Below are positions 19,906 through 59,490 of a stretch of DNA of 64,000 nucleotides, piece by piece. This DNA is from Anaerolineae bacterium (GTDB lineage: Bacteria; Chloroflexota; Anaerolineae; 4572-78; J111): positions 124,001-188,000 of the forward strand of contig JAKLJP010000008.1 of the NCBI GenBank assembly GCA_023151115.1, read 5' to 3'. Made by a program: the position numbers and the translations under genes. The notes under the pieces were generated by a model that did not search any database, was not told the DNA's origin, and saw only the letters and a program-made list of their open reading frames with translations. How positions within the stretch are numbered: the first letter of the stretch is position 1; every line of letters begins with the position of its first letter.

Positions 19906-20041
19906 GAAGATAGAGGATTGTAGATAGAGGATAGAGAACTGTAGCTAGAGAACAGAAGATAGAGCGTTGTGAGTAGAAGATAGTTACCATTTTCTATCTT
20001 CCATCTTCTAATTTCTATCTTCTATCTTCCATCCTCCATCA
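19906..20041. repeat. Heptamer word array with inverted second arm
   Basis: Bases 19906-19982 divide into 11 consecutive 7-base words of type GARGATA (for example gaagata, gaggata, gtagata). From 19993 seven words of the reverse type TCTATCT follow to 20041, abutting the stop of the next gene. The two arms can fold into an imperfect hairpin. Confidence 0.85.
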
Positions 20042-22000
20042 TCACCGCTCGCGCATCATCTGGCGGAGCTCAGTATAGGCTGGGCGAGGCGTCCGATCGG
20101 GATTAAGAATGGCGTACCAGCGCATGGGTTCGGCGGCGGGATACCAGGGCACGGTGCTAAAATCAAGGTTGAACAAAAAGAGCGCCTGCACAAAAGGCCA
20201 TTCCTGTTGGGTTTTAGTATAGGCTCGGCTCAGATACTTGGCCTGCTGCTCCGGCGTAACGCCGATGGCTTCGTGCTCATCCAAATCCCAACTATTTTGC
20301 AGTACCCAACCGACTTCGGTAATCCAAATGGGGGTGTTGCCATCAGCGTTTGCCTGCATCACCTGATGCTGGTCCACCACTCGCGCTAATGAAAGACCCC
20401 ACGGGTCGGTTTCATCTGGCGCCCGTCCATAGGCGTAAGGGTGGCTGCCCAGCGCGTCGAAATAGCCTTTAGCTCCGGCATCATACATACCCTGTAAAAA
20501 CTTCAAGTCACCATAAACCGTTGCCGAACCTTCACCGGTGGTCGCCAGCCCGCCACTAATTACCAGGGCTTCGGGGTCGGTGTTTTTGATGGCGGTGTAG
20601 GCGGTTTTAAGCATCTCGGTGTAGACGGCCGGGTCCGGGGGCTGATAGCCCCATTCGTAATCTAGATTAGGCTCATTCCAAATTTCATAAGCGGCCACCC
20701 GGCCTTTATAGCGTTCCGCCAGGGCAGTCATAAAATTTGCAAAGTCGTTTATATCCGTAGGAGGGTGACTAAGGGCGCTGTCGGCAGGACGCGCCCAGGC
20801 TGGGACGCCATGCACCCGAAGCAAAATTTTTAGCTGTTGGTCGCCGTAAGCTTTGACAATATTATCCGGGTCAACCCATTGAAAGTCGCCCGGCTCTGGT
20901 TCAACCGTGCCCCAATTAACGTAGCCCTTGGCCCAATCAAAGCCCATATCGTTGATTAGGTAGGCTAGGCCCAAATCGGCCAGGTTGACACCCGCGGCAA
21001 AATTTGGGTTAACCGGCAGTTTCAGAGCCGGGGCCGCTTGAACAACCTGTTCAGCGGCAGGCGGGGAAAAGATGGCTCTGGGATTAATCGCCAGGAAATC
21101 ATCCCAGGCCTCATGGATGGTCAGCCGGGTGGACTGCCCCCCTTCAGCCTTGAGCGCGTAGAGTTCATGGTTGCCCGCTTGCCACGAGGTAAAGGTAAGC
21201 CACTCACCATCAGCCGACCAGTGAAGCGACCCTAGCCAAGCCCCATTACGAGAAGAGCCAGCCTGCGGATAAAGCAGTTGAACGGTATCCACTTCCGGGC
21301 CGATGACATAAATACCCGGCATATCCTCTTCATCCCAGCCAATAAAGGCCAGGCGTTGGCTGTCGGGCGACCAGGCCGGGGATGTGCCTTTCAACGGGCC
21401 GGGAGTAATCACCTGCTCATCCGTTCCATCGGGCCGAACCCGGTAAATTTTCTCCACCCCGTTCCGCACGGCGGCAAAGGCGATATATTTGCCGTCCGGG
21501 GACCAGGCGGGCAGGCGATCCATTTCATTGTTAAAAGTAAGTTGAATGGCGGTATCACCTTCGAGATGCTGCACAAAAATTTCCGCATCACCGTCACGCT
21601 CTGAAACAAAAGCAACACTCTGACCGCCGGGCGACCAGCTTGGGCTGTACTCCCAGGCTGGGCTATTGGTCAAATTACGCGGTGTGGCTGTTTCCTCCGA
21701 AGTAGGGACAGGTAGCAGCCAAATCTCGCTGTCGCCGGACCGTTGGCTGGTGAAAGCCAATATGCGCCCATCCAGCGACCAAGCCGGGTCCCAATCGGCG
21801 CTGGGATGTGGAGTTAGGTTGACAATTTGCCCGGTTTGATCCAGCGCAAAAATGTCACCCGACCCACTCCGATCAGAGGCAAAAGCGTAACTGAACCGGA
21901 CAGTTTCTTCTTTAGGATAACAAGCCGACAGACCGAAAAGTCCCACCCCGACGACGATGAAAACTCCGGCCAGCGCCAAACTTACACGTTTCTTTAGCAT
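20042..22000 (-). CDS. Lipoprotein: PD40/TolB-like beta propeller fused to a clan GH-A glycoside hydrolase
   Basis: 652 residues from ATG 22000. It begins with a lipoprotein signal peptide (MLKKRVSLALAGVFIVVGVG, then LFGLSAC, acylated Cys near 26). Residues about 40-300 hold six or seven PD40 (WD40-like) repeats (PAWSPDGKYIAF, SPSWSPGGQSVAF). The rest is a TIM-barrel glycosidase-like domain: acid/base Glu in AAYEIWNEPN and probable nucleophile Glu in IWITEVGW, as in GH5/GH39/GH53 relatives. It is probably anchored on the outer face of the membrane, with the propeller binding polymer or protein and the barrel cleaving a polysaccharide. The fusion is unusual. A TTG start at 22042 is possible but would bury the signal peptide. 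Confidence 0.82.
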   Translation of the reverse strand: MLKKRVSLALAGVFIVVGVGLFGLSACYPKEETVRFSYAFASDRSGSGDIFALDQTGQIVNLTPHPSADWDPAWSLDGRILAFTSQRSGDSEIWLLPVPTSEETATPRNLTNSPAWEYSPSWSPGGQSVAFVSERDGDAEIFVQHLEGDTAIQLTFNNEMDRLPAWSPDGKYIAFAAVRNGVEKIYRVRPDGTDEQVITPGPLKGTSPAWSPDSQRLAFIGWDEEDMPGIYVIGPEVDTVQLLYPQAGSSRNGAWLGSLHWSADGEWLTFTSWQAGNHELYALKAEGGQSTRLTIHEAWDDFLAINPRAIFSPPAAEQVVQAAPALKLPVNPNFAAGVNLADLGLAYLINDMGFDWAKGYVNWGTVEPEPGDFQWVDPDNIVKAYGDQQLKILLRVHGVPAWARPADSALSHPPTDINDFANFMTALAERYKGRVAAYEIWNEPNLDYEWGYQPPDPAVYTEMLKTAYTAIKNTDPEALVISGGLATTGEGSATVYGDLKFLQGMYDAGAKGYFDALGSHPYAYGRAPDETDPWGLSLARVVDQHQVMQANADGNTPIWITEVGWVLQNSWDLDEHEAIGVTPEQQAKYLSRAYTKTQQEWPFVQALFLFNLDFSTVPWYPAAEPMRWYAILNPDRTPRPAYTELRQMMRER

Positions 22001-22112
22001 ACCTGATTTTAGTATAGCACTAGTGGCTAAGCCGGGCAACAAAAGCTTAATAAAACATAGTAAGCTTATGCCTTAAGGAAGGCAGCTTTAGTGACTTTTG
22101 GGCAAATTTGTC

Positions 22113-22128
22113 TTGCCCGATCGGGCAA
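22113..22128. repeat. Perfect palindrome in an intergenic region
   Basis: TTGCCCGATCGGGCAA is flanked on both sides by AAATTTGTCTT direct repeats. Possible regulatory site; no T-run. The surrounding gap 22001-22272 contains no other clear feature. Confidence 0.4.
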
Positions 22129-22272
22129 AAATTTGTCTTACTTTTCAATAATCCCCAGCTTATAAACAAGTGACTATCGGGTGATAGATAAATGACTTTT
22201 GGGACTGTTCAACCAGGGAGTTTTATTATATCCTTGAAATATATCAGTATGGAGTGATTAAGGAGACCCCCC

Positions 22273-22425
22273 ATGACCGAACTGGCTATCATCATCCTGA
22301 CGATGGCTCTCCTGTTAGGGACTGTAATTGTAGAGGAATTACGGTTACAGGTTGATAATTCCGAAAAAAATCTCACTCCCAACTGGCTCGGTAAACTTTC
22401 CAATGGACGCTCACCCAAAAACTAA
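22273..22425 (+). CDS. Small membrane protein
   Basis: 50 residues: MTELAIIILTMALLLGTVIV forms one hydrophobic helix, followed by a polar tail (EELRLQVDNSEKNLTPNWL). The ribosome site AAGGAG lies 8 bases upstream of ATG 22273. It stands alone in an 840-base gap. No family was recognised. Confidence 0.55.
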   Translation: MTELAIIILTMALLLGTVIVEELRLQVDNSEKNLTPNWLGKLSNGRSPKN

Positions 22426-57903: not shown

Positions 57904-57907
57904 AAAC

Positions 57908-57997
57908 AGGAGTAGGGAGTAAGAAGTAGGGAGTAAGGAGTAGAAGTAGGATTGAATTTATCAATCTCCTATCTCCAATCTCTAATTTCTTATTCCT
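57908..57997. repeat. Heptamer array between atpG and atpD
   Basis: Words aggagta, gggagta, agaagta, gggagta, aggagta (57908-57942), then from 57963 aatctcc, tatctcc, aatctct, aatttct, tattcct. The second arm is of related but not exactly inverse sequence. Confidence 0.85.
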
Positions 57998-58019
57998 TCT
58001 TTTCCCTCAGGAGGATTGA

Positions 58020-59420
58020 ATGGCACAAGGAGTCGAAGGCCGTGTTAGGCAAGTGATGGGTGCGGTGGTTGATGTTGAGTTTCCGCCAGAACGCTTACCC
58101 GAAATTTATGATGCTTTGGAAGTCCCCCGTGAAGGGCAGGACTCGCTGGTCTTGGAAGTCCAGCAGCACCTGGGCAATGATGTGGTGCGTACCATTGCCA
58201 TGGACGCCACCGACGGTCTGCGCCGCGGCCAACCCGCGATTAGTACCGGCGCCCCTATCAGTGTACCGGTTGGCCCGCCGACGTTGGGCCGTATTTTTAA
58301 TGTGTTGGGCCGCCCGGTGGATAATTTGGGGCCGGTTGAAAGCGACACTTATTACCCAATTCACCGCCCCGCCCCTGAATTTAAAGATCAAGTGACCAAA
58401 GCTGAACCTTTTGAAACCGGCATGAAGGTGATTGACCTGATTGCTCCCTTCACCCGGGGCGGTAAAACCGGCGTCTTTGGTGGGGCGGGTGTGGGCAAAA
58501 CCGTTATCATTCAAGAGTTGATTGCTTCGCTGGCCCGCGAGCACGGCGGTTACTCGGTTTTCGCCGGAGTGGGTGAGCGCACCCGCGAGGGCACGGCACT
58601 GTACCAGGAAATGCACGAAGCCGGCGTGTTGGACAAGCTGTGCATGGTTTTCGGCCAGATGAACGAGCCATCTGGAGTGCGTTTGCGTGTGGCTTTGACT
58701 GGCCTGACCATGGCCGAGTATTTCCGCGATGAAGGCCGTGACGTGCTGCTCTTTATTGACAATATCTTCCGCTTTGTGATGAGCGGTTCCGAAGTGTCGG
58801 CGCTGTTGGGCCGCATGCCCAGCGCCGTAGGCTACCAGCCAACCCTGGCCACCGAAATGGGCGAGTTGCAGGAACGTATCACCTCTACCCGCCGCGGCTC
58901 CATCACCAGTATGCAGGCCGTCTATGTGCCCGCCGACGACTACACCGACCCCGCGCCGGTCACCACTTTTGCTCACCTGGATGCGACCATTTCTCTGGAA
59001 CGCTCCATTGCTGCTCTCGGTATCTTCCCGGCGGTAGACCCGCTGGCCTCAACCAGCCGGATTCTCGACCCGCAGATTGTTGGCGAAGAACACTATAACG
59101 TGGCGCGTGGGGTGCAGCGGGTATTGCAGCGCTACAAAGACCTCCAGGATATTATCGCTATTCTGGGGATTGACGAATTGTCGGAAGATGACAAGTTGGT
59201 GGTGAGTCGCGCCCGCAAGATTCAACGCTTCTTCTCCCAACCGATGTATGTGGCCCAGCAGTTCACCGGGCGCGAAGGCCGTTATGTGCCGATGCAGGAG
59301 ACCGTGGCCGGCTTTAAGCGGATTCTGGATGGCGACTGTGACGACATCCCCGAACCATACTTCTACATGGCCGGCAACATTGACGAAGTATTCCAACGCG
59401 CCAGAGAAGCGCAGAACTAG
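58020..59420 (+). CDS. atpD: ATP synthase F1 subunit beta
   Basis: 466 residues. P-loop [11 protein letters not shown] near 157-167, catalytic Glu in [10 protein letters not shown], Walker [11 protein letters not shown], and the DELSEDD (DELSEEE-type) lever. Catalytic subunit. AGGAGG precedes ATG 58020. Confidence 0.97.
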
Positions 59421-59490
59421 CAGGTAACAGGTAGCAAGTAGCAGGTAATTACTGTTCACTGATAATTGGTTACTGACTACTGATTACTCT
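59421..59490. repeat. Heptamer array between atpD and atpC
   Basis: Words caggtaa, caggtag, caagtag, caggtaa (59421-59448) followed by ttactgt, tcactga, taattgg, ttactga, ctactga, ttactct. It begins one base after the atpD stop codon. Confidence 0.85.

Follow-up and report, generated by a model that had tools for sequence, protein, structure and literature searches.

A 64,000-nucleotide stretch from an Anaerolineae bacterium (assembly GCA_023151115.1, contig JAKLJP010000008.1, positions 124,001 to 188,000; here called the window and numbered from its first base) contains many short arrays in which 7-base words follow one another head to tail. These arrays are real, strong, lineage-wide, and no artefact, and they are probably heptanucleotide tandem repeats of the long simple sequence repeat class, turned over by local slippage. 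Periods were scored by counting lag-k stretches, in which at least 17 of 21 positions are identical to the base k further on. The window (55% GC) held 22 lag-7 stretches, against 0 to 3 at each lag from 1 to 24 that is not divisible by 7 (two at lag 6, three at lag 8). Lags 14 and 21 gave 20 and 15 stretches because both are multiples of 7. With the threshold set at 16 of 21, the lag-7 count rose to 25. Tandem Repeats Finder returned 59 rows for the window, 23 of them with period 7.

A preliminary description of this DNA had proposed more than 20 loci of consecutive 7-base words, which these counts bear out. Word-by-word printing recovered the arrays it had named at their positions, with minor corrections. 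What had been read as a single long array at 31067-31157 is really two words, GAGGCGT and then TGACACT, and the words at 34014-34090 drift from AGAAGAT to an AGAAAT type along the array. The claim that the words run without slippage was nearly right, apart from one-base slips (e.g. near 57943). Arrays of 8-base words (30672, 34758, and 36429) and a 6-base hairpin (56868-56932) were also confirmed.

Two related Anaerolineales genomes share this behavior. The ATP synthase A chain encoded in the window is 98% identical to that of H5_CFX5 (G001), a 9.0 Mb metagenome-assembled genome (MAG) of the Anaerolineales, and 82% identical to that of H5_CFX7 (G002; 9.4 Mb). The Anaerolineales are part of the Chloroflexota. 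Beyond 28.8 kb and as far as its end, the window aligns with G001 in pieces of 86.6-94.0% identity; for the part before that point, the 80 kb of G001 that were compared yielded no aligned piece longer than 300 bases. Arrays stand at homologous places in these three separately assembled genomes, which rules out an assembly artefact. Six further 20 kb stretches from each relative gave 13 lag-7 stretches in G001 and 11 in G002; no lag outside the multiples of 7 exceeded 4. Among other related loci, L003, L005, L006, and L007 had no lag-7 stretch, L004 had one, and L008 had four. The L003 contig is titled Spirochaetaceae, and its ATP synthase A chain is 61% identical to that of the window, closer than most Chloroflexota loci found; it is perhaps misbinned.

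Whole genomes were searched for TGA recurring five times at lag 7, and for a reversed control, AGT, which is itself a lag-7 pattern. Across 201 sampled genomes of the phylum, the lag-7 form of the pair gave 5774 matches, compared with 130 for the lag-6 form and 632 for the lag-8 form. These are totals of matches and not of arrays, since matches overlap within arrays. Part of the lag-8 total came from 4-base arrays (e.g. G061, G144, and G070) and much of it from G063, which has true 8-base arrays. In G001 alone, lag 7 contributed 704 matches, lag 6 contributed 14 (from two loci), and lag 8 none. Equal abundance of neighboring lags, which the preliminary description had said would defeat a fixed 7-base phase, was thus not found for lags 6 and 8 in whole genomes. 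Lag 9 was counted in samples only, with 0 stretches in the window, 0 in 120 kb of G001, and 1 in 120 kb of G002. At least one lag-7 match was present in 57 of the 201 genomes. We termed the 34 with at least 10 matches array-rich and the 144 with none array-empty.

Array-poor genomes behave differently. Samples of 40 kb (one of 15.7 kb; about 1.18 Mb in total) from 30 other genomes of the phylum, picked for long contigs, held 16 lag-7 stretches. Counts for lags 5, 8, 10, and 11 were 4, 2, 5, and 2. Lags 6, 9, and 12, which coding sequence favors, reached 13, 11, and 10. In such genomes, the lead of 7 is thus confined to comparisons with lags not divisible by 3.

Local copying is suggested by the arrangement of units. 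Between lags 7 and 42, the likeness of units falls from 0.774 to 0.572 in coding arrays, from 0.781 to 0.662 in intergenic arrays, and from 0.793 to 0.639 in cyanobacterial arrays. A steady fall with distance is the pattern that local copying leaves. The earlier claim of a fixed period of 7, many words, and adjacent units that are most alike is supported. A general 21-base super-period in coding arrays was rejected, as likeness at lag 21 lies below that at lags 7 and 14.

Arrays were also compared between relatives. Open reading frames (ORFs) were called by length alone, and 16 of the 22 lag-7 stretches in the window lie inside them, with six outside. Sixteen coding loci, three of which consist entirely or in part of 8-base arrays, were mapped from the window to G001. 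Their net length change was a nonzero multiple of 21 in eight and zero in three. Multiples of 21 keep both the 7-base unit and the reading frame. The remaining loci differed by +3, -3, and +48 (one each), and by -25 and -1. The last two look like mapping errors, because the genes are open and the spans at 38385 are equal in another comparison. Words change as well. All five copies of the array at 38385 share one substitution between the window and G001, with copy number unchanged, and a different word occupies the same place at 34314 in G002 and at 37234 in G001. The locus at 57905 is nearly absent from G002 (9 bases against 101). In the comparison of words and spans, loci at 19900, 31321, and 50933 (in one or both relatives) and 31398 in G002 could not be placed well enough and were left out.

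We propose that a chance short duplication would seed each array. Replication slippage would then add or remove units locally, with point mutations traveling along with the copies, as the pattern of likeness suggests. Local slippage with traveling mutations would leave a word that is homogenized, drifting, and replaceable within the time separating these species. Selection would set which arrays survive: between genes, and within genes only if the frame stays open and the protein tolerates the insertion. Inverted arms most likely arise from copying of a folded-back strand, and some may persist as RNA hairpins. The data show that 7 is preferred to 6 or 8; the cause stays a proposal, the likeliest being a step length of the replication machinery combined with poor mismatch repair of loops larger than about 3 bases.

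Several observations weigh against this account. Five mapped spacer loci changed in length by -8, 0, +13, +24, and +9, with no nonzero multiple of 7 among them. Of 48 alignment gaps inside arrays, only 9 had a length divisible by 7, as did 4 of 59 outside, although gap placement within repeats is ambiguous. Whole-unit change in copy number thus appears clear only where selection on the reading frame would also act. Moreover, plain slippage explains neither the choice of 7 over 6 or 8 nor the 144 genomes without a lag-7 match. It also leaves unexplained an excess of reverse transcriptase (PF00078), found in 22 of the 34 array-rich and 41 of the 144 array-empty genomes (Fisher p 0.00012).

This excess lends some support to a different explanation, in which a dedicated or lineage-specific enzyme, whether reverse-transcriptase-, terminal-transferase-, or recombinase-like, copies 7-base units. 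The sharp 7-base step and the patchiness of the trait would also suit such an enzyme. Array-rich genomes are larger (median 4.1 Mb against 3.1 Mb), and the excess persists at 3-4.5 Mb (10 of 17 rich against 20 of 63 empty) and at 4.5 Mb or more (12 of 13 against 10 of 18). Below 3 Mb it is lost (0 of 4 against 11 of 63), and 12 of the 34 rich genomes, some of them incomplete MAGs, have no PF00078 match. The PolX thumb (PF14791) was present in 12 of 19 chosen rich genomes and missing from seven, including all four cyanobacteria tested. Neither family is therefore supported as a necessary enzyme. Loss of mismatch repair is likewise unsupported as a cause: 32 of the 34 rich genomes carry MutS_I (PF01624), as do 113 of the 144 empty ones. 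In these counts absences from incomplete MAGs are weak evidence, and kinship among genomes was ignored. The preliminary description had called for an enzyme whose presence follows the arrays; none emerged among the three families tested. We regard a dedicated enzyme as unlikely, though reverse transcriptase may contribute. One cyanobacterium (G269) matched reverse transcriptase 30 times within 6 Mb, and several of the scores were identical.

Pairing of arrays with their reverse complements bears on whether they are selected elements, such as spacer RNA hairpins (terminators or stabilizers) or protein-binding words. In the window and two relatives, 7 of 30 pairs of neighboring arrays were reverse-complementary when up to one mismatch was allowed, against 2.4% of random pairs, and 13 of 30 when up to two were allowed, against 10%. 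These 30 pairs include homologous loci and are not independent. With at most one mismatch, the values were 11 of 17 in other Chloroflexota (3.8% random) and 3 of 21 in cyanobacteria (3.3% random). The view that many arrays are followed by a reverse complement therefore holds insofar as the pairs are real and above random, yet they are a minority here. In a 66% GC Chloroflexota genome (G063; L135, 13586-15055), a series of GGAGTCG/CTGACTC hairpins is spaced at intervals of roughly 300-350 bases along a single very long ORF.

RNA folding gave a mixed result. Of the six intergenic array loci in the window, four outperformed every one of 200 shuffles (z -4.16 to -9.42), and the other two folded no better than shuffles. 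Five counterparts in G001 gave z values of -2.89, -6.26, -4.32, -5.72, and -1.43. A functional role has a precedent in the part of PMC4679880 concerned with Beggiatoaceae, where repeats upstream of start codons are proposed as translational sites. Nevertheless, words and lengths vary between close relatives, some loci are nearly absent from G002 (such as 57905), and 16 of the 22 window stretches lie within genes. Together these make selected elements an improbable general explanation.

We next consider words, which the preliminary description had held to differ at every locus. The window has 19 distinct words in 22 arrays, where random 7-mers of the stretch would give 21.7. Samples of 200 kb gave 28 words in 42 arrays for G001 (41.0 for random 7-mers) and 22 in 26 for G002 (25.6). 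Words thus differ between loci, yet they recur within one genome above chance. In the window, a GAAGATA type occurs at 19906, 34010, and 37236, and CTGACCC at 31906, 37293, and 37734. The Chloroflexota genome G063 had 7 words in 23 arrays. Words with extreme purine counts made up 24% in this lineage against 13% of random 7-mers; elsewhere the values were 17% against 12% and 17% against 16%.

Recurrence above chance could mean that arrays spread between loci as mobile or recombining units, like repetitive extragenic palindromic (REP) sequences or miniature inverted-repeat transposable elements (MITEs). We find this very unlikely, as array lengths and variants differ and the printed arrays share no common flank, their ends not having been systematically tested. 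A real hairpin insertion that adjoins an array also looks quite different. It spans about 100 bases at 50979-51084, has inverted ends (GATCCAA.. and ..TTGGATC), is flanked on both sides by AATCTC, and is absent from the same place in G001. By its sequence, it looks like a MITE inserted into an AATCTC-type repeat. Conversely, at window 48877-48893, G001 carries more than 100 extra bases with a hairpin (GTCATTTCGA... / ...TCGAAATGAC) that the window lacks.

Contingency loci, in which 7-base changes would shift the frame and switch membrane-protein genes on and off, are scarcely credible: a 7-base step within a gene is a frame shift, and the genes do encode membrane proteins, but all three stay open in three genomes, and at 14 of the 16 coding loci mapped the length difference is divisible by 3, zero included.

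Heptanucleotide repeats of cyanobacteria are known as STRR, and the preliminary description took them to share one word between loci. We examined 146 genomes in the phylum of G203, a Gastranaerophilales MAG (NCBI places the Gastranaerophilales beside the Cyanobacteriota), of which 61 matched the TGA pattern. Ten array-rich genomes among the 61, each with two PsaA/PsaB matches and hence photosynthetic cyanobacteria, had 7 as their leading period and 85 arrays. Their distinct words per arrays were 3/3, 14/18, 5/6, 8/9, 8/11, 7/9, 8/9, 9/10, 3/3, and 6/7. A single shared word is therefore not general, though one prevails in some genomes: among the TGA-preselected matches listed for G213, nearly all were TGAGTGC. 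Like those of the window, these STRR-type repeats have many words per genome, depending on the locus. They differ in being mainly intergenic (79 of 86 stretches outside called ORFs, against 6 of 22 in the window) and in having rarer reverse-complement neighbors (3 of 21 against 7 of 30 in the window and relatives). A word list common to Chloroflexota and Cyanobacteriota (TGATAAC, TGAAACC, and TGAATAG, from TGA-preselected listings) was rejected, as 12 shared words did not exceed chance (null mean 9.0; 191 of 1000 draws reached 12).

Published accounts place the arrays within a recorded type. Long simple sequence repeats, with units of 5-11 bases, are described in the relevant parts of PMC4679880 and PMC4060949 as likewise head-to-tail, with 7 foremost, and patchy among genomes. 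A marked lead of 7-base units over other lengths was found here as well. Unlike the repeats described there, the present arrays are imperfect, often lie within genes, and in some cases form inverted pairs. In Table 2 of PMC4060949, the 8 genera of Chloroflexi have a median category of +1.00 for 7n3, against 0.00 for both 6n3 and 8n3; the 7n3 medians of Planctomycetes and Cyanobacteria (12 genera) are +2.00 and 0.00. The same source, in its part on repair, states that mismatch repair falls sharply with loops larger than 1-3 bases. A passage of PMC4679880 credits Mrazek et al. 2007 with finding heptanucleotide repeats commonest in most genomes, and with attributing them to slippage that favors 7-base units, 7 being the length contacted by the polymerase. 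The preliminary description could name no mechanism; one is thus in print. The arrays are a strong case of an already recorded bacterial repeat type, and the 7-specific excess in Chloroflexi is already published. Literature searches on Chloroflexi or Anaerolineae, and on heptamer repeats at large, turned up no title or opening of an abstract describing such arrays in this lineage, within a coverage that excludes most subscription journals.

Two other heptamer systems are instructive. The TAACTGA repeats of marine Beggiatoaceae are likewise direct repeats at many loci of a large genome; as far as PMC4679880 describes them, a single word prevails and heptamers resembling it seldom occur as repeats, in contrast to the 19 words of the window. 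TGATAAC, a rotation of TAACTGA, is among the matches listed for some Chloroflexota (e.g. G066 and G082). The GGGNATC quadruplex repeats of Xanthomonas and Nostoc also have a heptamer unit and are genome-wide. In the part of PMC4692102 describing them, they comprise one G-rich word type with four units preferred, whereas most words here are of another type, and no GGGNATC-type word occurs among the 22 consensus words of the window.

The coding arrays of the window cluster in three adjacent membrane-protein genes (801, 1005, and 987 aa; 30068-38450, - strand), which hold 16 of the 22 lag-7 stretches. PTPS_related scored over its cut-off in the second and third genes, and PMT_2 in the third only; the first matched no family. 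Homologues of all three are stop-free in G001 and G002. On a hydropathy track, most arrays fall at the N-terminus or in the intervals that separate hydrophobic stretches. Coding arrays fell in ORFs with at least five hydrophobic stretches in 16 of 16 cases in the window, 21 of 24 in G001, and 12 of 14 in G002, where such ORFs hold 23%, 15%, and 11% of ORF bases; most of these arrays come from the same three genes. A preference for membrane proteins was rejected as a rule, because, outside the three genes, such ORFs accounted for only 6 of the 11 coding arrays in G001 and G002 (and for 2 of the 6 ORFs concerned), and for 2 of 35 in other Chloroflexota. G001 and G002 each contain 91 matches to the 987-aa protein (35487-38450), many of them only to its last ~120 residues, which probably form a C-terminal domain common to a large membrane-protein family.

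Within the first gene (ORF 30068-32473, - strand), a GTGAGGC/GTGAAGC array (30370-30422) and an 8-base array (30661-30715; GGAAGGTT in the window, GGAGGGTT in G001) lie in the C-terminal part, which lacks hydrophobic stretches. The GAGGCGT and TGACACT pair (31062-31155) is 21 bases shorter in G001. It is followed by an AATTGTG array (31321-31355) with a TGGTGCG array (31398-31440; together 31321-31440), and by a TAAGAAA array (31705-31745) that codes for part of a hydrophobic stretch. A GGGGTTG array then leads into CTGACCC (31864-31937; reverse-complement distance 2), also 21 bases shorter in G001, and a CCGACCC array (32426-32463) occupies the 5' end of the gene.

In the second gene (ORF 32470-35487, - strand), the AGAAGAT array (34009-34093) is 21 bases shorter in G001, and a TAAATCG array (34123-34171) is 21 bases longer. 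GGAGTAA (34314-34362) reads GGAGTAG in G001, and its replacement in G002 is of the GAAGATA type. A short GTGGTGC array (34694-34721) then precedes the 8-base array TCTTCGTC (together 34690-34842).

The third gene (ORF 35487-38450, - strand) contains the 8-base array GCAGGGGA (36422-36460; another 8-base word in G001), and GAAGATG followed by CTGACCC (37234-37354; the first word being GGTAGAC and GGATGGA in G001). GAATGGC followed by CTGACTA (37615-37763) comes next, and then ACGTGAT at the 5' end (38385-38438), all five copies of which are ACGTGAG in G001. In the CTGACTA array (37684-37763), words 3 and 6 end in ..CTT, at positions where ..CTA would be an in-frame stop on the - strand. Such stop-avoiding words are a single case, found in the window and G001.

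Arrays outside these genes are often hairpins. GATAGAA-type words followed by their reverse complement (TTCTATC type) form one at 19904-20045 (fold z -5.46) that overlaps the first codons of the longest ORF (18788-19990, - strand). AAATTAG followed by a TTCTTA-type array (53797-53931) lies downstream of the ATP synthase A-chain gene and does not fold significantly (z -1.27). Upstream of an ATP synthase alpha-type gene, a GTTAAAC/GTTCAAC array forms a self-complementary hairpin (55252-55304; z -8.12). The 6-base arrays AGGCTA and CTTAGC form another hairpin (56864-56934; z -9.42). ORF 58020-59420 is preceded by GGAGTAG with a partly complementary CAATCTC array (57905-58005; z -4.16) and followed by AGCAGGT with TACTGAT-type words (59415-59492; z -0.78, not significant). 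Elsewhere, a 25-base tandem repeat of about four copies (AGAATCAAAGGTCATTTTGACACTT) lies at 10231-10340.

Beyond slippage of the ordinary kind, it is conceivable, if doubtful, that some bacterial lineages, patchily across phyla, carry an activity in replication or repair whose intrinsic step is 7 nucleotides and which, strong in some species and absent from their relatives, seeds and homogenizes words almost regardless of their sequence. If so, the arrays would be a readable trace of that activity and not leftovers of ordinary slippage. The excess of 7 over 6 and 8, and a proposed cause, are already on record; this lineage makes the cause testable. It offers hundreds of pattern matches per genome, sister genomes that can be aligned, and 6- and 8-base arrays as controls, and array-rich and array-free genomes occur within one phylum. 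It also shows arrays persisting inside membrane-protein genes with the reading frame kept open.

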